A DNA stretch of 64,000 bases from Aliarcobacter trophiarum LMG 25534 (lineage in GTDB: Bacteria > Campylobacterota > Campylobacteria > Campylobacterales > Arcobacteraceae). This document shows positions 28,618-41,849 of this stretch, in pieces. The notes beneath the pieces were generated by a model, which searched no databases, was not told the origin of the DNA, and saw only the letters and a program-made list of their open reading frames with translations. The stretch lies in NCBI RefSeq assembly GCF_003355515.1, contig NZ_CP031367.1:558001-622000 (forward strand), written 5' to 3'. The number at the start of each line of letters is the position of its first letter. Positions within the stretch are counted from its first letter, which is position 1. The translations under genes and the position numbers were made by a program.

Positions 28618-28626
28618 TATAAAAAG

Positions 28627-28651
28627 GTGAGTTTTTAAACTCACTTTTTTT
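28627..28651. terminator. Bidirectional terminator between cyclophilin and peroxidase genes
   Basis: Stem GTGAGTTT / AAACTCAC with a 2-base loop, then seven T; five A precede the stem, so it works on both strands. It overlaps the stop codon of the convergent peroxidase gene. Confidence 0.9.
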
Positions 28652-29765
28652 AATCTTTGATTAGATGTTCATATCTTTTATCTGTTAAAAGTTTCATAAA
28701 AGCTACTAAAGCGTCAATTTTTCTATCACTTTGAGCATTTGCTTTTAACTCTTTTAGAGAAATAGTATCTTTAAACTCAGGTTCATCCCAAGGTTCGTTT
28801 GTCTCTGGATTAATATTATTTTCTTTATTGTTATATTTATCATAAAATAAAACTACCGTTTTTAAATCTTTAAATACACCATTGTGCATATATGGAGATG
28901 TAACTGCGACATTTCTTAGAGTAGGGGTTTTATATTTTCCTAAATTTTCATCTTTATTTTTAATATTTGGGTTTGCTGCTAATCCTAAATCTTTCTCTTT
29001 TATACCATTTTTTGCTCTTAATTGATTATTTATAGGAACTCCAATATTATGAAACTCATAGTTTGTAAAAGTTTCACCCTCTTTATCTTCACCTTTTAAA
29101 ACATGACAAGTAGCACAAGAGTTATTATTGTTTGAGAAGAATATTGACATTCCTAAATCTTCAAGTGGAGTTAAATCATACTCACCTTTTAAATATCTAT
29201 CATATTTTGAATCAAATGTTGAAAATTCATCTGTTTTCTCAAAACTAGCAATTACTTGACTTAAAGCCTCAAATGCTTTTTTGTCATTATCAAAAATATC
29301 TTTTCCAAACAAAGCTTTAAAGCTCTCTATATAAAAACTATTCTCTTTTAATCTTGCTACAACTTGGCTTTCATCTTTTAATCCCATCTCAATTGGATTT
29401 AATGGTGGACCACCAGCTTGTTCTTCTAAAGTGTTAGCTCTTCCATCCCAAAACTGACCACCTTTATATAATTTTTTCTTCTCATCATAATGAAATTTTG
29501 GAGAAAATTTTGCATAAGAAGCAGTTGGAGCTTGTCTATCACCTAAAGATTTTAAATCATCTCCTAAAGACGCCATTTTTGAGATACCATTATCTCTATC
29601 ATCAATAAAACCAACTTGTGGATTATGACAAGTTGCACAGCTTTGAGTTCTATTTTGTGATAAATTGATATCAAAAAATAGTATTTTCCCCAAATCTTCT
29701 TTTGAAATACTATTTGCTAGTAAGTTTGTTCCTAAAAATATTGTTATTAAAACTAATTTTTTCAT
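28650..29765 (-). CDS. Di-heme cytochrome c peroxidase family protein
   Basis: A signal peptide (MKKLVLITIFLGTNLLA) and two heme c sites (SCATCHNPQ with C43-H47, and SCATCHVLKG near 220) mark a periplasmic CcpA/MauG-type enzyme of 371 residues. TPTLRNVAVTSPYMHNGVF is the usual distal block. It may remove peroxide or, as a MauG relative, oxidise a partner protein. It is the last gene of the Fur-box operon, and its start overlaps the end of the desaturase-like gene by 56 bases, which is a long overlap. Confidence 0.9.
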   Translation of the reverse strand: MKKLVLITIFLGTNLLANSISKEDLGKILFFDINLSQNRTQSCATCHNPQVGFIDDRDNGISKMASLGDDLKSLGDRQAPTASYAKFSPKFHYDEKKKLYKGGQFWDGRANTLEEQAGGPPLNPIEMGLKDESQVVARLKENSFYIESFKALFGKDIFDNDKKAFEALSQVIASFEKTDEFSTFDSKYDRYLKGEYDLTPLEDLGMSIFFSNNNNSCATCHVLKGEDKEGETFTNYEFHNIGVPINNQLRAKNGIKEKDLGLAANPNIKNKDENLGKYKTPTLRNVAVTSPYMHNGVFKDLKTVVLFYDKYNNKENNINPETNEPWDEPEFKDTISLKELKANAQSDRKIDALVAFMKLLTDKRYEHLIKD

Positions 29766-30666
29766 AAACTCTTCCTTTCTTTAATAAATTAATAAATGGT
29801 CTTAGATATAAATCTTTTATACTTTTATACTCACTCATTTGGTTTTTTCTTAGTCCAAATTTAAGTATTTTTACATCTTTTGATAAAGCTAAAGTCCCAA
29901 AAACTCTATCCCAAATAGCTATATATCCACCATAGTTTTTATTAAAATGTTTTTTATCATGATGGATTTGATGCTGTTTTGGAGATAAGAGCCATTTTTC
30001 TATAACTGAGAAATATGAGAATGGAACATGAGAGTGTCTTAAATTTGAGCCAAAAATTGAAGAGATAAATACTAAAGCATTTACTCCAAAAATCATATAG
30101 ATATTTATTTTTGCTCCAAACAAATAGATAAAAACTCCTGTTATAAAACCAACACTTAAGGCGTATCTTAAGGCAAATAAAAAGTTTTCTACAAAATGAA
30201 CTCTATAAAAGGTAATAGGAGTTAATACTTTTGCACTATGATGAACTTTGTGAAATTCCCATAAAATAGGAATAGTGTGTAGAAATCTATGAAGCCAATA
30301 TCTTGTGAAATCACTAAAAATAAAAATAGCTAAGGTATAAAAAATAGTAATTTGAAGATAAGAGAAAGATAAATTCTCAAAAAAACCAAAATTCTCATAT
30401 AAAAACTTATTTGTAAAAAGTGCTACACTCTTTGCACTTAATACCAAAGGAATAAGTAAAAATATATTTACTAAATTTGCTAAAAAAAAGTAGATATAAT
30501 CTAATTTTGCACTAGGATGAAGCCAAAGTTTACTAGAAAGAATTACTTTTGGGCTTTTTTTTGTAAAATAAAAAAAGAGTATAGCTAAAATAAAACTTGA
30601 TATTAAATATAACCAATATACTCTTTTAGAAGGGTTACTTAGAAAATCTAGTGCAAAATAGTCCAA
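29710..30666 (-). CDS. Sterol desaturase / fatty acid hydroxylase family membrane protein
   Basis: The 318-residue membrane protein contains the three histidine clusters of the diiron hydroxylase family, HRFLH, HKVHH and HQIHH, in the order and spacing expected, plus about five hydrophobic segments. Bacterial members hydroxylate lipids or carotenoids; the substrate is unknown. Its place between an imelysin gene and a di-heme peroxidase gene in an iron-regulated operon is unusual. Its iron centre may explain the regulation. Confidence 0.85.
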   Translation of the reverse strand: MDYFALDFLSNPSKRVYWLYLISSFILAILFFYFTKKSPKVILSSKLWLHPSAKLDYIYFFLANLVNIFLLIPLVLSAKSVALFTNKFLYENFGFFENLSFSYLQITIFYTLAIFIFSDFTRYWLHRFLHTIPILWEFHKVHHSAKVLTPITFYRVHFVENFLFALRYALSVGFITGVFIYLFGAKINIYMIFGVNALVFISSIFGSNLRHSHVPFSYFSVIEKWLLSPKQHQIHHDKKHFNKNYGGYIAIWDRVFGTLALSKDVKILKFGLRKNQMSEYKSIKDLYLRPFINLLKKGRVYEKISFNNNIFRNKLTSK

Positions 30667-30669
30667 ATT

Positions 30670-31611
30670 TTAATCTCCATCTGCATCTAAGATTTCAGGT
30701 TTAAGGCCTAATTTTTCAATGATTGTAATATAGTATAAATCATGAATTTCTGAAACTAAATCAAAAAGTTTTTTTGCATTTGTAAAATCATCTTTAGGAA
30801 GAGAGTTTAACTCTTTTTTTGCTTCATCTATTTTAGAAACTACTGCTTCTAAGTCGTTTGTAGCCTTTTTCTCTTTTGCTAAATTAAGAAGGTTTATATA
30901 GTTCTCATTTGAAATCATCTCTTTTTGAGCATCTAAAATTGCATTTATTGAAGCAAAAGAGTTTTGGCTTAAAAAGTATTCTGCTCTACTATTTTTAAAA
31001 TCATTTTTATATTTTGCAGATAATCCAGAAGGGTTTCCAACTCTCCACTCTTTTAATCTATATGAAGATGCAACCAATGCATTTAATAGCTTTGCATTGT
31101 CATCTTCTTTTACTACTGGGTTTTTTAAATAGTTTTCATAAACAGCTTTAACCTCTTCAAGATTTTTTATAATTGAACTTAAAATCTCTTTTGAGATCTC
31201 CTTTTTTCTATCATTTAAATCATTACTAGAGAAAATCACATATTCTAAAGCATTTATAGTTTTAAATGAGTTTTTAAATAGAGCCTTTTTAATATCTGAA
31301 TCTCCATCTACAACTCTTTTCATTTGAGAGTTTAAATCCTCTTTTAGATTGTTAAAAACATCAATATATCGAGGTGTATCTAAATAATCACTATTTATTT
31401 CACCAGCAAGATAGTTTGTCTCAACTCTTTTCCAATCTTTTAAAAACTTTGTAAAGTTTTCACTATTAATCTCTTTTTGAAGATTTTTTGCACTCTCTAT
31501 AGCACTTTTTGTATCTTTTAGTGCTATATTCTTTATAACACTTTGAAAAATTGTCTCATTTGCAAAAACAGATGAAAACAAAAATAAAAACATTAAAAAT
31601 ATTTTTTTCAT
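30670..31611 (-). CDS. Imelysin family periplasmic protein (second copy, COG3489 type)
   Basis: A signal peptide (MKKIFLMFLFLFSSVFANE) is followed by an all-helical imelysin domain. The RVETNYLAGEI and INALEYVIFSS segments correspond to the conserved helices of the family. It lacks the complete GxHxxE motif seen in the first imelysin of this operon. Such proteins commonly follow a di-heme oxidoreductase gene in iron-uptake clusters. Its ATG overlaps the end of that gene by one base. Confidence 0.75.
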   Translation of the reverse strand: MKKIFLMFLFLFSSVFANETIFQSVIKNIALKDTKSAIESAKNLQKEINSENFTKFLKDWKRVETNYLAGEINSDYLDTPRYIDVFNNLKEDLNSQMKRVVDGDSDIKKALFKNSFKTINALEYVIFSSNDLNDRKKEISKEILSSIIKNLEEVKAVYENYLKNPVVKEDDNAKLLNALVASSYRLKEWRVGNPSGLSAKYKNDFKNSRAEYFLSQNSFASINAILDAQKEMISNENYINLLNLAKEKKATNDLEAVVSKIDEAKKELNSLPKDDFTNAKKLFDLVSEIHDLYYITIIEKLGLKPEILDADGD

Positions 31612-32981
31612 TATAACTCCTCTAAAAATTTAATTAGTTTTTCTCTTTTGGCTTTTTCCAAGCTCATATAAGCTTCACGACTTTGTGTAGCTTCTCCTCC
31701 ATGCCATAAAATAGCCTCTTCAAAATTTTTAGCTCTTCCATCGTGAAGAAGCCTAGCTCTGTTCTTAGTTATTTTTTCATGTAGAGTTAAACCCCAAAGA
31801 GGAGCAGTTCGCCACTCTTTCTCATTTGCACTAAACTCAACTCTTCCATCTGATAAATCTTCACCCATATCATGAAGTAAAAAATCAGAAAATGGAGAAA
31901 TTTCAAAACCTAATTTTGTCTTAAAACTACTTATATGGCACTTTGAACAGCTAAGTTCTTCAAAAATAGAAAACCCATCTTTATACTCTTTTGTATTTTT
32001 ATTTGCACTATATGTTTTTAAATTTTTTAAATAGTAAGTTATTGCTTCTAGTCTATCATCTGGAAGATCTATTTTATCTTTTGCTTTTGGAGCTTCTAAA
32101 CACTCTTTTTGGAAACTTGTGCATTTTTTGTTTGGTTCAATTGCTGTTGTAAGTCCTATATCATTTGATGCAGCAAAAGCAACTTGCTCTTTTAGTTTTG
32201 CAACACTAGCTTTCCAAGTATATTTTCCAAGCTCATATTTTTCTGAAATAGGGGAATATACAAAGTTTGCTTTCCCTTTTATGCCATCATTATTTGTATC
32301 ATTAATATCTTGATTTTTTAAAATCTCTTCATTCTCTATTAAATCTATCAAAGCCATACCATTTAAAGATTGAGCTATTCTATATGAAACTACACTATTT
32401 TTATGAAGTTTTCCATAATTTAGATTTTCTAAACTATATTTTGGTTTTTGTAAAATTATAGTTTCACCATCTGGGAATTTAACTTCAATATCTTCAAAAT
32501 CTATTTTAATATTTCCTTCAAAAGGAACTCCAAAATTTCCATTTATAGCCAACTGTTCCCCATAAACTGGTTCTGGAATAAATCCCTTTTTCTTTAAAAT
32601 CTCTTTGTTTTCAAAGCTATTATCTGAGTTTATAGATAATCTTGCAATTAAAGCTCTTGAAGTTAAATTTTCTTTAGTAAAAAGCTCTCCACGCCCATTG
32701 TTTGGATGACATGAAATACAACTATTTGCATTAAAAAGTGGTCCTAAACCATCTCGTGCTGTTGTAACACTAGGAGCTTTTACCCATGGAATATTGAAAA
32801 AACTTCTTCCTAATATAAAAATATCAGTTTGATTATTGCTTAAGCCATCAATAGGTTTTAAAAGAAGTTTGCTATTTTTCTCATTTGATATATAGGTACT
32901 TTCAAGATTAGATGCAAAAAGCCCTGTGCAAAATATTGCAGCAAGGCTTTTAAAAAGTATAATCTTTTTAATAAATTTCAT
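31611..32981 (-). CDS. Di-heme oxidoreductase, putative peroxidase (DHOR/DUF1111)
   Basis: The exported protein (456 residues) has two heme c motifs, SCISCHPNNGRGE and SCSKCHISSF, and the family's end block TAPLWGLTLHEK followed by LHDGRAKNFEEAILWHGGEA. That is the COG3488 'thiol oxidoreductase-like' family. In proteobacteria it lies next to imelysin genes, as here on both sides, and is thought to serve periplasmic iron handling. The start codon follows the stop of the imelysin gene directly. Confidence 0.88.
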   Translation of the reverse strand: MKFIKKIILFKSLAAIFCTGLFASNLESTYISNEKNSKLLLKPIDGLSNNQTDIFILGRSFFNIPWVKAPSVTTARDGLGPLFNANSCISCHPNNGRGELFTKENLTSRALIARLSINSDNSFENKEILKKKGFIPEPVYGEQLAINGNFGVPFEGNIKIDFEDIEVKFPDGETIILQKPKYSLENLNYGKLHKNSVVSYRIAQSLNGMALIDLIENEEILKNQDINDTNNDGIKGKANFVYSPISEKYELGKYTWKASVAKLKEQVAFAASNDIGLTTAIEPNKKCTSFQKECLEAPKAKDKIDLPDDRLEAITYYLKNLKTYSANKNTKEYKDGFSIFEELSCSKCHISSFKTKLGFEISPFSDFLLHDMGEDLSDGRVEFSANEKEWRTAPLWGLTLHEKITKNRARLLHDGRAKNFEEAILWHGGEATQSREAYMSLEKAKREKLIKFLEEL

Positions 32982-34331
32982 TTATAGCTTTGTCTCTTCT
33001 GGGTCTGTAACATCATCAGTTGTTAGTTTAATATTATTTGATTTTGCAACAGTTATCATCTCATCACCTAATTTTCTCAGTTCATTTTTTAGTTTTACTA
33101 AAACTTTTGATTGAGGATGTTCTGGTCTTATTTGATAATCAAAGTGAGCTTCAGTTTTTGCAATTTTATCTACACTCTCTATTTTTTCTTCAATATCAAT
33201 CATAAGTTTTAAAATTCTATCTTTATCCTCTTTTTTTAAGCTATCAAGTAAAGATTCTCCATATTTTTTACCATTGTATGTAGAAGTTAAAATATTTTTA
33301 AAACCTTCATAGTTTTTTACTAAATCTCTATGAGTATTATCCGAGAAGCAAGAGTGTTCGTCCTCTTCACTAGGAGTTAAAACAGCAACAGCAACTCTTT
33401 CATTTGCTAATTCAGATTTTATAAATACTCCCATTCCAGCAATAATTTGTTGCATAGCCTCTTTTTTTGTAATATTTCTATTTTTATTTTTACCTTTTAT
33501 TTTTCCTAAAAGAGCAGCTCTATAAAGTCCAGTATCACCTTTAATCTCTTTTTGCCAAGCACTTGTTACAATAGCTAAATCTTCAACTAATTTTTGTGTT
33601 ACAATACTTAAATACTCTAATCTTCTTTTTGCATCTTTATCTGTAGTGAAGTCTGAAAGTGGTCTTAAACCAGCAACCATTGCACCATTTGTAATTTTAT
33701 CTTCTAAGAAGTTATTATAATCTTGATCTTGTCCCCAAAGTAAAAATTCAATAGCATGATAACCAGTTGAAACATTTGCTTCTCCACCATTTTCATTTAA
33801 ATCAGTTAATGCTTGAACTGTAATTTTTGTAACATCAACTTCTTTCCCTTCTTCTCCACCTGGATTAAACTTTCCAATAGTGTCAATAATATTTCCAGAT
33901 GTTCTTTTCCCATCTGCATCAATAGTATAATCTATCATATTTTCATCAAGTGGCCAAGCATTAATTTGCCCCTCTAAAGCACCATAAGTTTCTAATACCC
34001 AACCATCACCAGCATCAATTGGACCACTTGCAAGTCTAAAAATCTCTGTGCTTCCATAAGACTCTCTTGATTGTAACCAAGCATTTTTTGCATTAGTAAG
34101 ATTTTCTTCTGTTGGATTTAGAACAAATTTATCAATAGCAATTTTTAACTTTTTTGCATCATTTAATGTATCTGTATAGTTATCAAGTGCTATATTTGCA
34201 TAGCTTTCAAGAAAGGGTAAGTTTTTTGAAATAGTAGAGCTTGTTTCATTTTTTTGTGTAACTGCACCTGAACTAATAGCTAAGGTAGCGGCAAATGATA
34301 AAGAAACTAAAAGTTTATTTGTAAATCTCAT
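32982..34331 (-). CDS. Imelysin family iron-regulated protein (IrpA-like)
   Basis: From ATG 34331 (AAGGA 7 bases upstream) the protein has 449 residues with a signal peptide (LLVSLSFAATLAISSGAV). The imelysin GxHxxE motif is present (STGYHAIEFLLWGQD), together with GPIDAGDGWVLETYGALEG and the repeat-like second half. It is a periplasmic or surface protein of iron metabolism. It is the first gene of the operon, with a Fur box 67 bases before its start. The longer frame to 34385 runs through the untranslated leader and lacks a ribosome site. Confidence 0.88.
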   Translation of the reverse strand: MRFTNKLLVSLSFAATLAISSGAVTQKNETSSTISKNLPFLESYANIALDNYTDTLNDAKKLKIAIDKFVLNPTEENLTNAKNAWLQSRESYGSTEIFRLASGPIDAGDGWVLETYGALEGQINAWPLDENMIDYTIDADGKRTSGNIIDTIGKFNPGGEEGKEVDVTKITVQALTDLNENGGEANVSTGYHAIEFLLWGQDQDYNNFLEDKITNGAMVAGLRPLSDFTTDKDAKRRLEYLSIVTQKLVEDLAIVTSAWQKEIKGDTGLYRAALLGKIKGKNKNRNITKKEAMQQIIAGMGVFIKSELANERVAVAVLTPSEEDEHSCFSDNTHRDLVKNYEGFKNILTSTYNGKKYGESLLDSLKKEDKDRILKLMIDIEEKIESVDKIAKTEAHFDYQIRPEHPQSKVLVKLKNELRKLGDEMITVAKSNNIKLTTDDVTDPEETKL

Positions 34332-34397
34332 TTTAAAATCCTTGTTATATAAAATTTTTAAAATTAAATCAAAAAAAAACTTCAAGTTTACTTAAAA

Positions 34398-34412
34398 TGA
34401 TAATAATTATCA
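34398..34412 (-). promoter_or_regulatory. Fur box upstream of imelysin operon
   Basis: A perfect 7-1-7 inverted repeat, TGATAAT-A-ATTATCA, identical to the core of the Fur consensus. It lies 67 bases before the imelysin ATG and just after the stop of the AsmA-like gene, so it should repress the five-gene operon when iron is plentiful. Confidence 0.85.
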
Positions 34413-34417
34413 AGATA

Positions 34418-35932
34418 TTAAAAAAGAGATTTTATTCCTTTTAAAAGCTCCTTTTTATCACTATTTTCTTCTTTATTTAGGTATTTATCCAATTTTTTTT
34501 CTAAAATATTTTTTAATAATTCTTCCACATTTACTACTATAATAGGTTTATTTAAATCATCTTCAAGTTTTACAGAAAACCTATTTTTATTTAGATTTAT
34601 ATCGAGCTTTGTATCAATAATATTTTTTTCTAAATCTATGAAAGCCTCTTTTGATTTAATATCACTTTTTTTAGAGTTTAAATTTAAATTAGAGTATATT
34701 TTTTTATTATCAATGTTACTTGCTACATTTCCTGTTTCAAATATCTCCTTGCTTAAATCTATTTTTGTAAGCTCCTCAACTTTTTGTATAAAACTATTTT
34801 TTACAAAGTTCCCATTTTTAATATCAAGATTTAGCTTACCGATTTTTGAAATAAGATTATAATTTAAATCTAAAGATAAGTTTGAGTTGAAAAATTCATC
34901 TTTGTTTAAAAGATGTAAAAGTTTCAAAGAGTTTGCATTGTTTACCTTTAAATCCAAATTATTATCCAAAAGTGCAAAGTTTGCAGTACCACCAGCAATA
35001 TTTGAATTCCCATCCACTTTTAGAGTTTTTTGATTTTTATCTATATTTCCTACTACTTTTAGATTTCCATTTAGTGCGATATTTATAAACTCTTCAATCT
35101 GTCTTAAATTTAAAATATCCAAAATATAGTTTGAGTTTATCTCTTTTGTTGTTAAATTAATAATTAAATTATTCATCTCCAAGTTTGCTAAACTAGAAGC
35201 TACTTTTATATCACTTGAAATCTTTGTATCTTCTAGTTTATTTGAGCTATTTATATTGTATGATATAGTCTGTTTTATAGGAAAGTTAAACTCTTTTTCA
35301 ACTACTTTATTGTTTATTTTTCCACTATTAATATTAGCCAAAATGTCACCATTAAAAGAGTTATCACTATTTTTTAAGATTTGTGCCTTTAAATTTAGCT
35401 TTCCAGAACTATATATAGGCTCATTTATAAGAGCAAAAATCTCATCTATGTTTGCATCTTTTACATCAAGATTTAAACTATTTAAATTGGACTTATTTAA
35501 ATTTATCTCATATCTTGAAGAGCTATTTGCTAGGTTTGTTATTCCTATTATTGTACTTATCCCATCTTTTGTAAGAAAATCACCATTTGCAATTAAAGAA
35601 CCTTTTAACTCTCTTTGTGCAAGATTATTAAAAATTGATAAATCATTTATATCTATTTTATAAGTAAACTCTCCTTTTAAGTCAAGTATAGAGTTTATCT
35701 TACCAATAATCTTTATTTTAGAACTCTCATTTATATTTGCAACTAGATTTACATCATTTGGACTTATAAGAAAAGTATCAAATTTTAGTTTGAAATCATT
35801 TTGTTTGTTGTTAAAACTATTTTCAATATAGTTTGCAATAGCTTTATTCCCAATATTTGTAAATAAAAGCATATAAAATAGTCCCAAAATAAATAGAACT
35901 AAAAAGAGTAGAAAAAAGAGAAATTTTTTCAT
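34418..35932 (-). CDS. AsmA-like periplasmic protein
   Basis: One N-terminal membrane anchor (about 4-26, FLFFLLFLVLFILGLFYMLL) is followed by about 470 residues of repeating asparagine- and lysine-rich beta strands (such as LNLKAQILKN, NSNIAGGTANFALLDNN). This is the pattern of AsmA/TamB-related proteins that span the periplasm and aid lipid transport. It sits alone; the Fur box next to its stop belongs to the following operon. Confidence 0.6.
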   Translation of the reverse strand: MKKFLFFLLFLVLFILGLFYMLLFTNIGNKAIANYIENSFNNKQNDFKLKFDTFLISPNDVNLVANINESSKIKIIGKINSILDLKGEFTYKIDINDLSIFNNLAQRELKGSLIANGDFLTKDGISTIIGITNLANSSSRYEINLNKSNLNSLNLDVKDANIDEIFALINEPIYSSGKLNLKAQILKNSDNSFNGDILANINSGKINNKVVEKEFNFPIKQTISYNINSSNKLEDTKISSDIKVASSLANLEMNNLIINLTTKEINSNYILDILNLRQIEEFINIALNGNLKVVGNIDKNQKTLKVDGNSNIAGGTANFALLDNNLDLKVNNANSLKLLHLLNKDEFFNSNLSLDLNYNLISKIGKLNLDIKNGNFVKNSFIQKVEELTKIDLSKEIFETGNVASNIDNKKIYSNLNLNSKKSDIKSKEAFIDLEKNIIDTKLDINLNKNRFSVKLEDDLNKPIIVVNVEELLKNILEKKLDKYLNKEENSDKKELLKGIKSLF

Positions 35933-36407: not shown

Positions 36408-36441
36408 AAAAAAAGGCTCAAGTTTATCTTGAGCCTTTTTT
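36408..36441. terminator. Terminator between atpE and binding-protein gene
   Basis: A13-base stem (AAAAAGGCTCAAG / CTTGAGCCTTTTT) with a TTTAT loop and T/A runs on both sides; it serves both convergent transcripts. Confidence 0.95.
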
Positions 36442-37411
36442 ATTTGTAGTAAAAACCGCTATTTGGCAGTTTCCCACCAATTATTTTTTTATCATTTTCA
36501 AGAAGAACTTCAAAGAAAAACTCTAAATCATTTTTACTATTTTGTGCAGTTATATTTTTTAAAATTACATGTTCTATAGAATCAACTAAACCACTCTCTT
36601 CTAGCATAGGAATAGTTTTTATTACCATTTTAGTAGCCTCTTCTTTATTGTTTTTGTACCAAGTTATAGCTTTTTCATATTCAGTTAAAAACTTCTCAAT
36701 AAGCTCTTTATTTGCTTTAGTTTTTCCTACAACTGCAATTCCAGCTTGAGGTATTTCACTTTTTACTTTAAATAATCTTCCCCACTCATCTTGTAAATTT
36801 ACACTTCTATAAATATCAGGAGCGATTAATTTTACAGGGAAAGAGCCTGTTTTTCTTAATGCTATAGATGTAGCTGGTTCAGCTAAAAGTACATTGTCTG
36901 CTCTTCTTAAGATTAACATCTGCATAGCATCTATTGGAGTTGCTACATATTTTATTTTAAAATCTTTTTTTATATCAAGATTTGCCTTTTTTATTAAAGC
37001 TTGAAGTACAATATCTGGCATATCTGCACGAAATGGTACAATTATCTCTTTGTTTTTAAAATCTTCTATAGTTTTTAAATCTTTATCACGGCTAAGAAGA
37101 CCTAAAATTCCCCATGTCGCTACATTTATTAGTTGTAAATCTACATCTTTATTATATAAATTTGCAGCTACATTTGTAGGAAGTGCTATAAAATCAACCT
37201 TTTTTTTTAAAATTAATGCCCTTAGCTCATCTGGATTATTCCATAGTTTAAACTCTATTTTTAAGCCTAAATCTTTTAAAGCATCATTATGTTGCATATA
37301 AATTAGTGGGTGAGAAATAGTTGCTATTGGACCAGCAACTACAATCATTTTTTCATCTTTTGCAAATAAAAAGCTAGAGAGTAGCACTAAAAGTAGTATT
37401 GTATTTTTCAT
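36440..37411 (-). CDS. ABC transporter substrate-binding protein, NitT/TauT (SsuA-like) type
   Basis: A signal peptide (MKNTILLLVLLSSFLFAKD) and an NMT1/SsuA-type fold (323 residues) are seen: VDFIALPTNVAANLY, KEIIVPFRADMPDIVLQ, LILRRADNVLLAEPATS. This is the periplasmic partner of the permease and ATPase encoded upstream in the same operon. The substrate is unknown; sulfonate, thiamine-precursor or other small molecules are typical for the family, but the Fur-like box in front of the operon suggests a metal- or heme-related compound. Confidence 0.8.
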   Translation of the reverse strand: MKNTILLLVLLSSFLFAKDEKMIVVAGPIATISHPLIYMQHNDALKDLGLKIEFKLWNNPDELRALILKKKVDFIALPTNVAANLYNKDVDLQLINVATWGILGLLSRDKDLKTIEDFKNKEIIVPFRADMPDIVLQALIKKANLDIKKDFKIKYVATPIDAMQMLILRRADNVLLAEPATSIALRKTGSFPVKLIAPDIYRSVNLQDEWGRLFKVKSEIPQAGIAVVGKTKANKELIEKFLTEYEKAITWYKNNKEEATKMVIKTIPMLEESGLVDSIEHVILKNITAQNSKNDLEFFFEVLLENDKKIIGGKLPNSGFYYK

Positions 37412-37430
37412 TTTTTATCCTTATTTAAAT

Positions 37431-38663
37431 TTATCCCTTTATTCCATCTTCTCTTTTATCTAATAAAAATGGGAAAAATATCTTCATATATATAATAAAT
37501 GGAATAGCCCAAATAATTGAAGATAAGATATATAATTCCATGCTATACTCTAAGAAATAGGGAATAAAAGCTCTCATAAATGTTGCAAGAATTATTAATA
37601 TTAATCCCAAAGTCAAAGCCAAATTTGTAAAAATCTCTCTTCCTGTATGAATTGTTGAAACAATTATAAGAATTACATAAAAAACAAGTCCAAAACTTCC
37701 AGTTGTAATAAAATGTCTAAAGTGATTTGTAAGATGTAACTCAAGTAAATAGTTAAATCCTAAAAAGAAAAATCCAATAGAAGTAAGCACAATAATGCTT
37801 ACAATATATAACACAAAAGGTCTATTTAAAATAAAATTATCTTTTAGTTTAAAATCATTTAGAACTCCTAAAATAGCAGAACCTACTGCAAAACAGATAT
37901 ATGCTAAAGTAGAATTTTCTGGGAAAAAGAACTCTACAAAACCATATAAAAGCAGACAAAATATTACAAGATTGTATCTAAATGATTTTGCTAAAAAAGT
38001 TTCATCTATTTTTTCTTGCTCTAAAAGTTCATTTATAGACTCCATACTAACTCTTCTTAAAGCAAGTAATATTAAAACTAAGATTAAAGATATTGAAAGA
38101 AGTAGGATTTTAAATGAGTCTATTTCTATAATATTAGCAACACTAAGAAAAAATAGTATTTGAATAATTACAATAGAGACCATAGAGTATGCCAAAGATA
38201 CATGTTTTTTATTTCTATCTTTAAAAGATGGAATGGCTGCTAAATATCCAATATAAGCTGTAAGGCTAATGTTGATAATAGCAGTAAAATAGATAGTTAA
38301 ATAATCCATAAACCAAAAACTAACTCTTCCTAAAACCCACCAAATAACAATAACTGCAAGATGTCTTCCAATTATTGGAACAACTCCTGGAAAAAGCTCA
38401 GGCAAACCTGTAAGAAAAAAAGCCACAATCATGGCAGTTCCAACTCCAAAAACCATCTCATAAATATGCCAGTTTAGAGTGTTTTCTATAGGAAGATTAA
38501 TATATCCAGCAAATACAAAAGCCCATAAAATAATACTTAAAACAATATATGGAGCTAAAAGTAAAAATATTGGTCTAAAACCATAGGCTAAATATATTGG
38601 GAAATCACCTTTTGGATAATAAGCATAGTGATTTGTTGCATACTGTTTCTCAAACTCTATCAT
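37431..38663 (-). CDS. NnrS family membrane protein
   Basis: The 410-residue protein has about twelve membrane segments and NnrS hallmarks: YGFRPIFLLLAPYIVLS at the start, NWHIYEMVFGVGTAMIVAFFLTGLPEL and LTNHFRHFITTGSFGLVFYVI. NnrS proteins contain heme and copper and protect against nitrosative stress or serve denitrification. This fits the nir-nor cluster 10 kb away, but its place inside an ABC operon is odd. It overlaps the ATPase gene by 4 bases. Confidence 0.88.
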   Translation of the reverse strand: MIEFEKQYATNHYAYYPKGDFPIYLAYGFRPIFLLLAPYIVLSIILWAFVFAGYINLPIENTLNWHIYEMVFGVGTAMIVAFFLTGLPELFPGVVPIIGRHLAVIVIWWVLGRVSFWFMDYLTIYFTAIINISLTAYIGYLAAIPSFKDRNKKHVSLAYSMVSIVIIQILFFLSVANIIEIDSFKILLLSISLILVLILLALRRVSMESINELLEQEKIDETFLAKSFRYNLVIFCLLLYGFVEFFFPENSTLAYICFAVGSAILGVLNDFKLKDNFILNRPFVLYIVSIIVLTSIGFFFLGFNYLLELHLTNHFRHFITTGSFGLVFYVILIIVSTIHTGREIFTNLALTLGLILIILATFMRAFIPYFLEYSMELYILSSIIWAIPFIIYMKIFFPFLLDKREDGIKG

Positions 38664-39400
38664 TTTAACTCCAATTCAAAACTCTCTATAATATCTCTAT
38701 CTTGTAATATTTCAGCTGTTTTACTATATACAAACTCATCATCTCTTTGTTTTTTTGGTAAATCTATACTGAATATTTTTTTAATATGCCCTACTGGTTC
38801 AGCTTTTAAAACTATTATCTCATCACTTAGTTTTATAGCTTCCATCAAATCGTGAGTTATAAAAAGTACACTTAAGTTTTTATCTTCAATCTCATCTATT
38901 AGGTGTTTTTGTAACTCTTTTTTAAGACCAATATCTAAAGCAGAAAATGGCTCATCCAAAAATAGTAAACTAGGATTTACAACTAAAGCTCTAGCAAAAG
39001 AGACTCTTTGCTTCATTCCTCCACTTAAATCTTTGGGAAACTTTTCTAAATCATACTCTTCTAAACCAAATAGAAGTGCAATCTCTTTTGCTTTTTTTAT
39101 AGCAATATCATTTTTCTCTTTTTTTGCTCTTAATCCTAAAGCAATATTATCTATAACATTTTTCCATGGAAGAAGCCTTGGCTCTTGAAAAGCAAAAGAG
39201 CTAGAGTTAAAACTATTTTTTATCTCTCCCTCATCATATTTTAAAAGTTTTGAGCAAAGATGAAGAAGTGTAGTTTTCCCTCCACCACTAGGTCCAACTA
39301 TAGATATTACTTTTCCCTTTTCAAGTGTAAAGCTAATATCTTTTAAAATCTCTTTAAAACCAAAAGAGAAACTAAGATTTTTTACTACTAATCTCTCCAT
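38660..39400 (-). CDS. ABC transporter ATP-binding protein, NitT/TauT (SsuB-like) type
   Basis: The nucleotide-binding domain of 246 residues has Walker A GPSGGGKTT, Q-loop SFAFQEPRLLPW, signature LSGGMKQR, Walker B LLFLDEP and the switch histidine in FITHD. It energises the permease whose gene overlaps it by 13 bases. The LPW after the Q-loop is typical of the nitrate/sulfonate subclass. Confidence 0.92.
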   Translation of the reverse strand: MERLVVKNLSFSFGFKEILKDISFTLEKGKVISIVGPSGGGKTTLLHLCSKLLKYDEGEIKNSFNSSSFAFQEPRLLPWKNVIDNIALGLRAKKEKNDIAIKKAKEIALLFGLEEYDLEKFPKDLSGGMKQRVSFARALVVNPSLLFLDEPFSALDIGLKKELQKHLIDEIEDKNLSVLFITHDLMEAIKLSDEIIVLKAEPVGHIKKIFSIDLPKKQRDDEFVYSKTAEILQDRDIIESFELELK

Positions 39401-40170
39401 GCTTCAAGCTCCTTTTTAATTGGTTCTAAAACTACATATTCAATTATTAGTAAACTAGCAATCATAATTGTAACTATTGCTAAAGCTGTTGATGTTTCAA
39501 GCTGACTTCTAGCAACCGCAAGAGCAGCTCCTAAACCATCACTAGTTGCCAAGAGTTCAGCCATAATAACTATTTTCCATGACATTCCAAGAGCTGAAAT
39601 ATAAGCAGGAAAAATATATGAAAAAATATGAGGAAGATATAAATCAAAAAGTTTCATTGAAAATGGAAGATGAAAACTATCTGCCATCTCTTTTAAATCT
39701 CCTTCTAAGGTTCTAGTTCCTTGTAAAGCTCCCACAAAAACTATAGGGAAAGAGGCTATAAATACTGTAAAAATTACAGTAGTATCTCCCATACCAAACC
39801 AAATCATAGCTAATACTATCCAAGCAATTGGAGGCATTCCAAATAAAATTGTAACTATTGGACGACTCATAATTGAAGCTGTTATAAATAGTCCAGCAAA
39901 TAGTCCCAAAATTGAACCAACTAATATAGCTAAACCAAAACCAATCATAGCTCTATTTAGTGTTATCATAATCTCACTTTGCATAGTTTCATCTTTTAAT
40001 AATTCAAATAGTGCCACAAAAGTCTCATTTGGACTAGGTAAGATTAGGTTTCCATATATTTGATTTCCAAAATCCCATAAAGCAAGGAAAAGAAATATTG
40101 AAGCAATAGATCCCCAACCACTCCAAAGATAGCTAGGAAAATCTTTTAAAATTTTTATAAAAAAGTTCAT
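39388..40170 (-). CDS. ABC transporter permease, NitT/TauT (SsuC-like) type
   Basis: Six membrane segments over 260 residues and the coupling-loop motif LFDLYLPHIFSYIFPAYISALGMSWK, written here in pieces as EMADS ... LPHIFSYIFPA, place it in the BPD_transp_1 family. It is the first gene of the operon (permease, ATPase, NnrS, binding protein). A Fur-like box lies 40-54 bases before its ATG, overlapping the promoter region. Confidence 0.9.
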   Translation of the reverse strand: MNFFIKILKDFPSYLWSGWGSIASIFLFLALWDFGNQIYGNLILPSPNETFVALFELLKDETMQSEIMITLNRAMIGFGLAILVGSILGLFAGLFITASIMSRPIVTILFGMPPIAWIVLAMIWFGMGDTTVIFTVFIASFPIVFVGALQGTRTLEGDLKEMADSFHLPFSMKLFDLYLPHIFSYIFPAYISALGMSWKIVIMAELLATSDGLGAALAVARSQLETSTALAIVTIMIASLLIIEYVVLEPIKKELEAWRD

Positions 40171-40209
40171 TTAAATATCCACTGTTTAGATTTTTCATTT
40201 TATTAAATT

Positions 40210-40224
40210 TGATACTAATTATCA
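40210..40224. promoter_or_regulatory. Fur-like box between divergent operons
   Basis: TGATACTAATTATCA matches the 7-1-7 Fur consensus except near its centre. It is 40 bases before the permease ATG on one side and about 107 bases before the ATPase-hemH start on the other, so it could act on both. Confidence 0.65.
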
Positions 40225-40292
40225 TTGAGGTAAGTCAAGAAATTATTTATCTTGTTAAATATATTTTTTACATAAAAAAAGCTTACAACTAG

Positions 40293-40298
40293 TATAAT
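40293..40298 (+). promoter_or_regulatory. -10 box for ATPase-hemH
   Basis: TATAAT preceded by TTTACA about 20 bases upstream (40267-40272) and 33 bases before the TTG start. Confidence 0.4.
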
Positions 40299-40330
40299 AA
40301 TTTCTAAATATTAAAAATTTGAGGTTTAAT

Positions 40331-40915
40331 TTGGTATTAGAGATAAAAAGTTTGACATTTGGATATAGAAAAAATAGTTTGATATTTGAAAACTTTGATT
40401 TAGAGCTTAAAAAAGGTGAATTAAAAACAATTTTTGGAAAAAGTGGAAGCGGAAAAACTACACTTTTTGAGCTTATTTTGGGAAACTTAAAACCACTAAA
40501 AGGAGAGATTAAAAAAAGTAAAACAGCCATGATTTTTCAAGATCCATTCTCTTCATTTCACCCAACATATACTATATATGAACAGATAAAAGATGTATTA
40601 AAACAAGATTTTAAAGCCAAACTAGATACTATTTTGCCAAAATTAAGCCTCGATATAGAACTTCTTTATAAAAAACCGTATGAATTAAGTGGTGGACAAC
40701 TTCAAAGATGTTCTATTTTAAGGGCTATTTTACTAAAACCAGATTTACTTCTAATTGATGAACCAACATCTGCACTAGATAATATAATTGCTTATGAGAC
40801 TATGAAACTGATAGTTAGTTTGCTTGAAAATTGTGCAATTTTGCTAGTAACTCACGATATAGATATGGCTTCTTGGTGTAGTAATGAGATAATAAGGTTG
40901 GAAAATGGAAAATAA
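40331..40915 (+). CDS. ABC transporter ATP-binding protein, solitary (DppF/NikE-like)
   Basis: The 194-residue nucleotide-binding domain has Walker A GKSGSGKTT, Q-loop MIFQDPFSSFHPTYTI, signature LSGGQLQR, Walker B LLLIDEPTSALD and HD switch. The DPF-S-HP after the Q-loop is typical of peptide/nickel importers. No permease is encoded beside it. The best start is TTG 40331, with GAGG 6 bases upstream (40321-40324). Its end overlaps hemH by 11 bases, so the two are made together; partners must be encoded elsewhere. Confidence 0.85.
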   Translation: MVLEIKSLTFGYRKNSLIFENFDLELKKGELKTIFGKSGSGKTTLFELILGNLKPLKGEIKKSKTAMIFQDPFSSFHPTYTIYEQIKDVLKQDFKAKLDTILPKLSLDIELLYKKPYELSGGQLQRCSILRAILLKPDLLLIDEPTSALDNIIAYETMKLIVSLLENCAILLVTHDIDMASWCSNEIIRLENGK

Positions 40916-41849
40916 GAAAAAAGCTTTGATACTTCTAAATATGGGTGGAGCTAGAGACAAAAACGAGTTAAAAATGTTTTTAACTAATATGTTTAATGAT
41001 GAAAATATTTTGACTATAAAAAGCTCATTTTTAAGAAAAATTATAGCTTTTATGATTACAAAAAAAAGATTAGATGATGCTTGGAAAAACTATGAACTAA
41101 TAGGTAACTGCTCTCCTATAAACCCTTTGAGTGAAAAATTAGTAGAAAAGTGTAACCAAAAAATAGATGAGTATAAAACCTATCAAGTTATGAGATACAC
41201 TCCACCTTTTGCAAAAGATGTTATAGATTTGATTTTAAAAGATAAAATAGAGGAGATTGTACTTCTTCCTTTGTATCCACAATACTCTACAACTACCACA
41301 AAATCTTCTGTGGAAGATTTTATAGATTTTTTACCATATAGTTTTGGAAGTAATATTAGATATATTGAAAACTTTTATAAAAATGACAAGTTTAATGAGT
41401 GTATTGTAAGTGAAATAGAGAAGAATATAATGAATGAAGATGATTTTAATCTAATATTTTCAGCTCACGGATTACCCCAAAAGATAGTAACAAATGGTGA
41501 CCCGTATGAAAAACAGATGAAAGAACATATTGAGATTTTAACTAAAAAATTAGAAGAAAAAAATATAAATTTTAAATCAATAAATCTAGCATATCAATCA
41601 AAAGTAGGTCCGATGAAGTGGCTTGAACCATCACTTGAAGAGATGTTGAAAAATTTTAAAGAGCAAAAAGTTATTATCTATCCACTTTCTTTTATTGTTG
41701 ATAACTCTGAAACAGTCTTTGAACTTGATATTGAGTATAGACATATTGCTCTTAATTTGGGAATAAAAGAGTACAAAGTTTGTCCTTGTGTAAATGATAG
41801 TGATGAGTTTGTTGAAGCAATTACTAATATAATCGAACAAAGAGACTGA
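40905..41849 (+). CDS. hemH: Ferrochelatase HemH
   Basis: Inserts Fe2+ into protoporphyrin IX, the last step of heme b synthesis. Seen are LLNMGGARDK at the start, MRYTPPF, LPLYPQYSTTTT, the catalytic histidine in LIFSAHGLPQK, and YQSKVGPMKWLEPSLEE. The conserved glutamate follows in DNSETVFELDIEYR. 314 residues is typical of the epsilon type. Placement behind a Fur-like box agrees with iron control of heme synthesis. Confidence 0.95.
   Translation: MENKKKALILLNMGGARDKNELKMFLTNMFNDENILTIKSSFLRKIIAFMITKKRLDDAWKNYELIGNCSPINPLSEKLVEKCNQKIDEYKTYQVMRYTPPFAKDVIDLILKDKIEEIVLLPLYPQYSTTTTKSSVEDFIDFLPYSFGSNIRYIENFYKNDKFNECIVSEIEKNIMNEDDFNLIFSAHGLPQKIVTNGDPYEKQMKEHIEILTKKLEEKNINFKSINLAYQSKVGPMKWLEPSLEEMLKNFKEQKVIIYPLSFIVDNSETVFELDIEYRHIALNLGIKEYKVCPCVNDSDEFVEAITNIIEQRD

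Follow-up and report, generated by a model that had tools for sequence, protein, structure and literature searches.

An imelysin operon of Aliarcobacter trophiarum, probably Fur repressed, that encodes a membrane hydroxylase-like protein and a MauG-like di-haem enzyme

Five adjacent minus-strand genes in a 64,000-nucleotide stretch of the Aliarcobacter trophiarum LMG 25534 genome (contig NZ_CP031367.1, positions 558,001 to 622,000; hereafter the window, whose own coordinates are used below) encode two imelysins, a DHOR family protein, a membrane protein of the FA_hydroxylase/sterol-desaturase superfamily (SD), and a MauG-like di-haem enzyme. On balance, we regard this cluster as a Fur-repressed iron-starvation operon that probably serves iron acquisition in the cell envelope, and as a variant of the imelysin-DHOR-imelysin(-DUF1513) type. 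The anatomy of the operon and its conservation lend good support to the prediction of a Fur-controlled iron module in the envelope.

Gene order, conservation, and the Fur box

The operon and its flanking signals comprise the following features.
32982 to 34331, minus strand: imelysin 1, 449 amino acids from an ATG start (PF09375, E 8.3e-64)
31611 to 32981, minus strand: DHOR (PF06537, E 2.4e-65)
30670 to 31611, minus strand: imelysin 2 (PF09375, E 1.4e-19)
29710 to 30666, minus strand: SD, a membrane protein with a TTG start (PF04116, E 5.3e-25)
28650 to 29765, minus strand: MauG-like di-haem enzyme (CCP_MauG PF03150, E 1.9e-47), with CxxCH at residues 43 and 217
34398 to 34412, strand not assigned: Fur box TGATAATAATTATCA, a perfect 7-1-7 palindrome, from a pattern scan and conservation
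34385 to 34413, minus strand: promoter-like site TTGATA-17-TAAACT, overlapped by the Fur box (sigma-70 scan; weak)
28627 to 28644, minus strand: terminator-like hairpin with a T run at the operon end

Thus laid out, abutting or overlapping on one strand, the genes bear out the original prediction of a five-gene operon behind a perfect Fur box. Because the intergenic gaps are, in gene order, only 0, -1, 3, and -56 nucleotides, it is near certain from the layout that the five genes would be read as one transcript. Imelysin 1 has an N terminus that looks by eye like a signal peptide and a GYHAIE motif matching GxHxxE, whose histidine is missing from imelysin 2, and DHOR carries two CxxCH motifs, at residues 88 and 345. 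The opposite strand also has a terminator-like hairpin at the operon end (28621-28650).

The comparison of gene order across Campylobacterota that the original prediction had proposed gave a uniform answer. Of 298 genomes, 20 contained SD and 21 contained DHOR, all SD-bearing genomes being among the latter, and the order imelysin 1-DHOR-imelysin 2-SD-MauG-like gene was kept on one strand in 20/20 (our own genome and 19 fetched loci). Three of these (L234-L236) have an extra gene between SD and the MauG-like gene, which is itself incomplete because the fetched stretch ends within it; in the one scanned with Pfam, the extra gene gave a beta-barrel match below the cut-off. A second set, loci L045-L060 from named genomes, overlaps the first in some genomes and yielded the full five-gene set in 15 of 16 loci, a count that includes a truncated first gene (L058) and a split DHOR (L049); the remaining locus, L056, lacks the MauG-like gene. 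SD is 86-87% identical to its counterpart in Arcobacter cryaerophilus (L057), to which our genome is closely related. Judged by these gene orders, the operon is a fixed, widespread arrangement and not a local oddity of one genome. The 21st DHOR-bearing genome, which lacks SD, holds a different system composed of an imelysin, a long DHOR, a porin-like gene, and an FTR1 permease (L237, G196 C85:5000-16000).

The Fur box is the sole perfect 7-1-7 palindrome in the 1,915,613-base genome. When one mismatch is allowed, the genome has seven sites in all, compared with four for the reversed pattern, so that one-mismatch sites alone mean little. The box overlaps the -35-like hexamer of the promoter-like site, which is weak evidence because such sites occur in the region at the number expected by chance (31 found versus 32.9 expected). 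Conservation, in contrast, provides strong evidence for the Fur box as a predicted regulatory site: a match with at most two mismatches lies ahead of imelysin 1 in all 19 other Campylobacterota operon loci (no mismatch in 6, one in 10, two in 3), whereas of 965 background windows of the same loci only 4 reached this level and none had fewer than two mismatches. Among the loci from named genomes, 12 of the 16 scanned (the window included, L058 excluded) have a box with at most two mismatches.

Directly upstream of the operon, on the same strand, lies a 504-amino-acid gene without a Pfam match (34418-35932), and many related loci have a similar-sized gene at this position. Farther on (36440-41849), a one-mismatch Fur-like site at 40210-40224 separates two divergent gene sets, one encoding an ATP-binding cassette (ABC) permease, an ABC ATPase, NnrS, and an NMT1-like binding protein and the other an ABC ATPase and ferrochelatase; one-mismatch sites barely exceed chance in this genome.

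The MauG-like enzyme, the membrane protein, and the place of DUF1513

The last gene had been described as a generic cytochrome c peroxidase, a description that we revise: by sequence comparison, its product is MauG-like, not an ordinary peroxidase. A PDB search placed MauG of Paracoccus denitrificans, a haem enzyme of methylamine metabolism that modifies protein, first (E 7e-109), well ahead of the di-haem enzyme 6nx0 (5e-39) and of bacterial cytochrome c peroxidases (about 1e-27 or worse), with 51% identity to MauG over 341 residues (48% over 366 residues when the full record is used). In MauG numbering, 16/16 operon enzymes retain the haem Cys/His residues together with Gln103, Pro107, Glu113, and Tyr294; 13/16 retain Trp93, and 0/16 retain the surface Trp199, a position that differs between PDB entries. 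In MauG, Trp199 serves electron transfer to preMADH. Three distant paralogues used as controls (36-39% identical) share both Tyr294 and Trp93, and these two residues alone therefore do not define the group. Tyr294 is given as the ligand typical of MauG in a passage of PMC7567364. The NCBIfam MauG model TIGR03791 scored the operon enzyme at 102 bits, below its cut-off of 443.85 bits; the P. denitrificans MauG chain itself scored 92.2 bits, and the model thus misses the best-studied MauG and does not separate the two. Close relatives of MauG carry the annotation "cytochrome c peroxidase" in plasmid records. In the best tree, in which Paracoccus was the only methylotroph to supply mau enzymes, the Paracoccus mau-cluster MauG is nested among imelysin-linked enzymes with 99/97 support, whereas an approximately unbiased test did not reject a tree with mau-cluster MauG outside them (p 0.198).

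SD has the features of its superfamily, namely a PF04116 match over the cut-off and the HxxxH, HxxHH, and HxxHH motifs; in these motifs (HRFLH, HKVHH, and HQIHH) every histidine is kept across 61 aligned SD proteins. The best structural match of the SD model (pLDDT 89.7) was the hydroxylase domain of Scs7p (4zr0 and 4zr1), with a modest Z score of 5.3 over 180 residues, the next unrelated row reaching 2.7. Foldseek returned no significant PDB match for the model. At 59 of 80 SD loci from named genomes, spanning four phyla, an imelysin lies within five open reading frames; 19 loci have none within that distance (6 of these at a contig end), and in the other 2 the caller found no SD. The linked loci outside Campylobacterota and SUP05 belong to Gammaproteobacteria, Bacteroidota, and Myxococcota, so that SD accompanies imelysins also at loci that lack DHOR and the MauG-like gene. 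In the 64 loci outside the Campylobacterota/SUP05 set (L061-L124), 44 carry DUF4856 and 43 carry a TonB receptor, families that were checked with Pfam on representatives. Cyanobacterial relatives of SD (L114, L117, L118, L121, and L123) lie beside a reading frame of about 2070-2190 amino acids, with no imelysin.

It had further been proposed that SD and the peroxidase together take the place often held by DUF1513. This proposal stands for SD, which follows imelysin 2 in an operon without DUF1513, and the cluster is in this respect a variant of the DUF1513 form that is widespread beyond its own genome; it fails for the di-haem enzyme. In the class of Ca. Thioglobus, 56 of 369 genomes had a DHOR family match, and 39 regions, mainly those with stronger matches, were fetched together with an extra stretch (L208). 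Within the 39, DUF1513 is present in 15 (its identity Pfam-checked in eight regions), SD in 6, and both in 1. The MauG-like gene occurs in 8, of which 3 have SD and 5 have DUF1513; in the latter it lies inside the operon (L184, L187, and L199), divergently (L180), or nearby on the opposite strand (L202). An Azospirillum brasilense plasmid (L214) has the annotated order MauG-like gene, imelysin, DHOR, imelysin, DUF1513, while in A. oryzae the MauG-like relative stands alone. Since it co-occurs with DUF1513 in Gammaproteobacteria and Azospirillum, the MauG-like enzyme is not a DUF1513 substitute, and joint replacement was rejected on the five gammaproteobacterial regions and A. brasilense, as well as on L186, which even has both SD and DUF1513. 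By gene order, the DUF1513 place is taken by SD alone. PF07433 (DUF1513) matched 0/296 Campylobacterota genomes in a search in which no control genome matched either, though the model does match gammaproteobacterial DUF1513 proteins. In SUP05-type relatives, a multicopper oxidase occupies the MauG-like position (L056 7963-9660, L191 9144-10871, and L194 4099-5796) and is followed by Fbp-type transporter genes; L194 lacks imelysin 2 and SD.

Proposed function and alternative explanations

The link to iron that had been claimed for the imelysin-DHOR-imelysin trio agrees with passages of Xu 2011 (PMC3143127), and the lruB, DHOR, and imelysin genes of Leptospira are dipyridyl induced according to part of PMC13066512. 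The surroundings of related operons point the same way. Downstream of the operon in Ca. Thioglobus L059 lie a FeoB gene, a 73-amino-acid gene taken by eye for FeoA, and Fbp-type genes including one for an FbpA-like protein; Fbp-type genes are also nearby in L050, L056, L071, L078, L191, and L204, and an FbpA homologue is present in 17/17 SD-bearing genomes of the window's own family. FTR1 was found in none of 15 SD-bearing genomes tested, our own included, in a search in which controls matched; it was found only in the SD-less G196. The transporter that the operon feeds is thus probably of the ferric ABC type, not FTR1.

We propose that low iron would free the promoter covered by the Fur box, allowing one transcript and five proteins to be made. 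The two imelysins would bind iron, or an iron complex, in the periplasm, and DHOR and the MauG-like enzyme would be exported di-haem oxidoreductases, as their families and N termini suggest. With its predicted tyrosine-ligated haem, the MauG-like enzyme would most likely use peroxide to oxidize a partner remotely, either an imelysin or its bound ligand. SD belongs to the membrane di-metal hydroxylases and may act on a lipid-like or membrane compound required by the imelysin step. A ferric FbpABC-type ABC transporter, not FTR1/EfeU, would then take up the released iron, as the genome content suggests.

Several observations weigh against this proposal. Four of the 16 scanned loci from named genomes (L051, L056, L059, and L060) lack a good Fur box. 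L191, like L056, has no MauG-like gene, which is therefore not always needed; a multicopper oxidase follows SD in both, and another oxidase at this position would fit an oxidation step. FbpA was not found in three more distant SD-bearing genomes (G239, G266, and G282) and is present in some relatives without SD, so that the transporter link is not strict. Finally, comparing Trp and Tyr positions of imelysins and DHOR between proteins with the MauG-like gene (21-23, mostly from Campylobacterota) and without it (10-16) singled out no candidate target that phylogenetic signal could not account for.

Alternatively, the operon may be a peroxide-defence and membrane-repair module in which DHOR and the di-haem enzyme clear peroxide arising in iron starvation, SD remodels lipids, and the imelysins merely scavenge loosened iron. 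The last gene does belong to the di-haem peroxidase superfamily, and, in the part of PMC7567364 that describes it, the imelysin-DHOR operon of Leptospira shows a response to both peroxide and iron. We nevertheless consider this explanation unlikely, given that the enzyme is far nearer to MauG than to bacterial cytochrome c peroxidase, with the tyrosine ligand kept, and that iron-transport genes are neighbors of the operon in other genomes. The original prediction that SD oxidizes a lipid-like or amphiphilic iron ligand, from which the haem enzymes then free iron, found no direct support and is retained as a still less probable rival. SD lies beside an imelysin and a TonB receptor in the DUF4856 loci, so its substrate may arrive with an imported iron complex; against this, FA_hydroxylase enzymes usually work from the cytoplasmic face, away from the periplasmic partners. 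It is highly improbable that SD is an OlsE-like ornithine-lipid hydroxylase tuning the membrane in low iron: OlsE (NF052566) is its sole NCBIfam match, yet the score of 55.9 bits falls far short of the cut-off of 475, and the idea is weakened by the lack of a PF13444 (OlsB-type) match in 4 of 15 SD-bearing genomes tested (our own G000, G008, G261, and G298). Equally improbable is a role of the MauG-like enzyme in an MbnH-type copper system, modifying a tryptophan of a copper-binding partner: TIGR04039 (MbnH family) is its best NCBIfam match, at 150.9 bits, yet this falls below the 362.85-bit cut-off, the operon lies behind a Fur box, and searches of Pfam and NCBIfam gave no MbnP-type match for any gene of the operon.

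The role of imelysins was left open by the first structures in 2011, as passages of PMC3143127 indicate, and imelysins now prove to have two oxidizing enzymes as repeated neighbors. One is the MauG-like enzyme, present next to them in Campylobacterota, Gammaproteobacteria, and Azospirillum; the other is a membrane hydroxylase, whose association with them spans four phyla. This recurrence points to oxidation as the missing chemistry of imelysins, the operon suggests an uncharacterized oxidation step in bacterial iron acquisition, and MauG relatives gain a context outside methylamine metabolism. More speculatively, and as a generalization that we would not bet on, MauG-type remote oxidation of an imelysin residue or iron ligand might be a general step of imelysin-based iron acquisition, with methylamine MauG recruited from the iron system and SD providing a second, membrane-side oxidation in imelysin systems of four phyla. 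Our search of open-licence PMC literature found no paper linking SD or MauG to imelysins, and the passages of two Leptospira papers that name both MauG and imelysin draw no link (PMC7567364 and PMC13066512).

Comparison with known systems

The closest known system is the imelysin-DHOR-imelysin(-DUF1513) operon, with which our operon shares a GxHxxE imelysin, DHOR, a second imelysin without the histidine, and, as predicted here, Fur control; it differs in having SD at the DUF1513 place and the MauG-like enzyme last, whereas A. brasilense L214 has the MauG-like gene first and DUF1513 last. The EfeUOB and EfeUOB-M ferrous iron transporters likewise combine an imelysin with a haem redox enzyme under iron regulation, but membership in EfeUOB was rejected since EfeU, a permease of the FTR1 type, is missing from all 15 SD-bearing genomes tested. 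In the DUF4856-imelysin-TonB receptor-SD loci of Colwellia, Pseudoalteromonas, and Shewanella, a related SD (about 37-44% identical) adjoins an imelysin, as in our operon; unlike it, these loci have neither DHOR nor the MauG-like gene, and their imelysin is lipoprotein-like in most and lacks the GxHxxE motif. The ceramide fatty-acid hydroxylase Scs7p, presumably of the FA_hydroxylase type, is the best structural match of SD, although a PDB sequence search with SD detected no match. Lastly, MauG of P. denitrificans sits in a mau cluster (L215), as do the Paracoccus enzymes, whereas the operon enzyme sits in an imelysin operon whose genes include none of the mau cluster.

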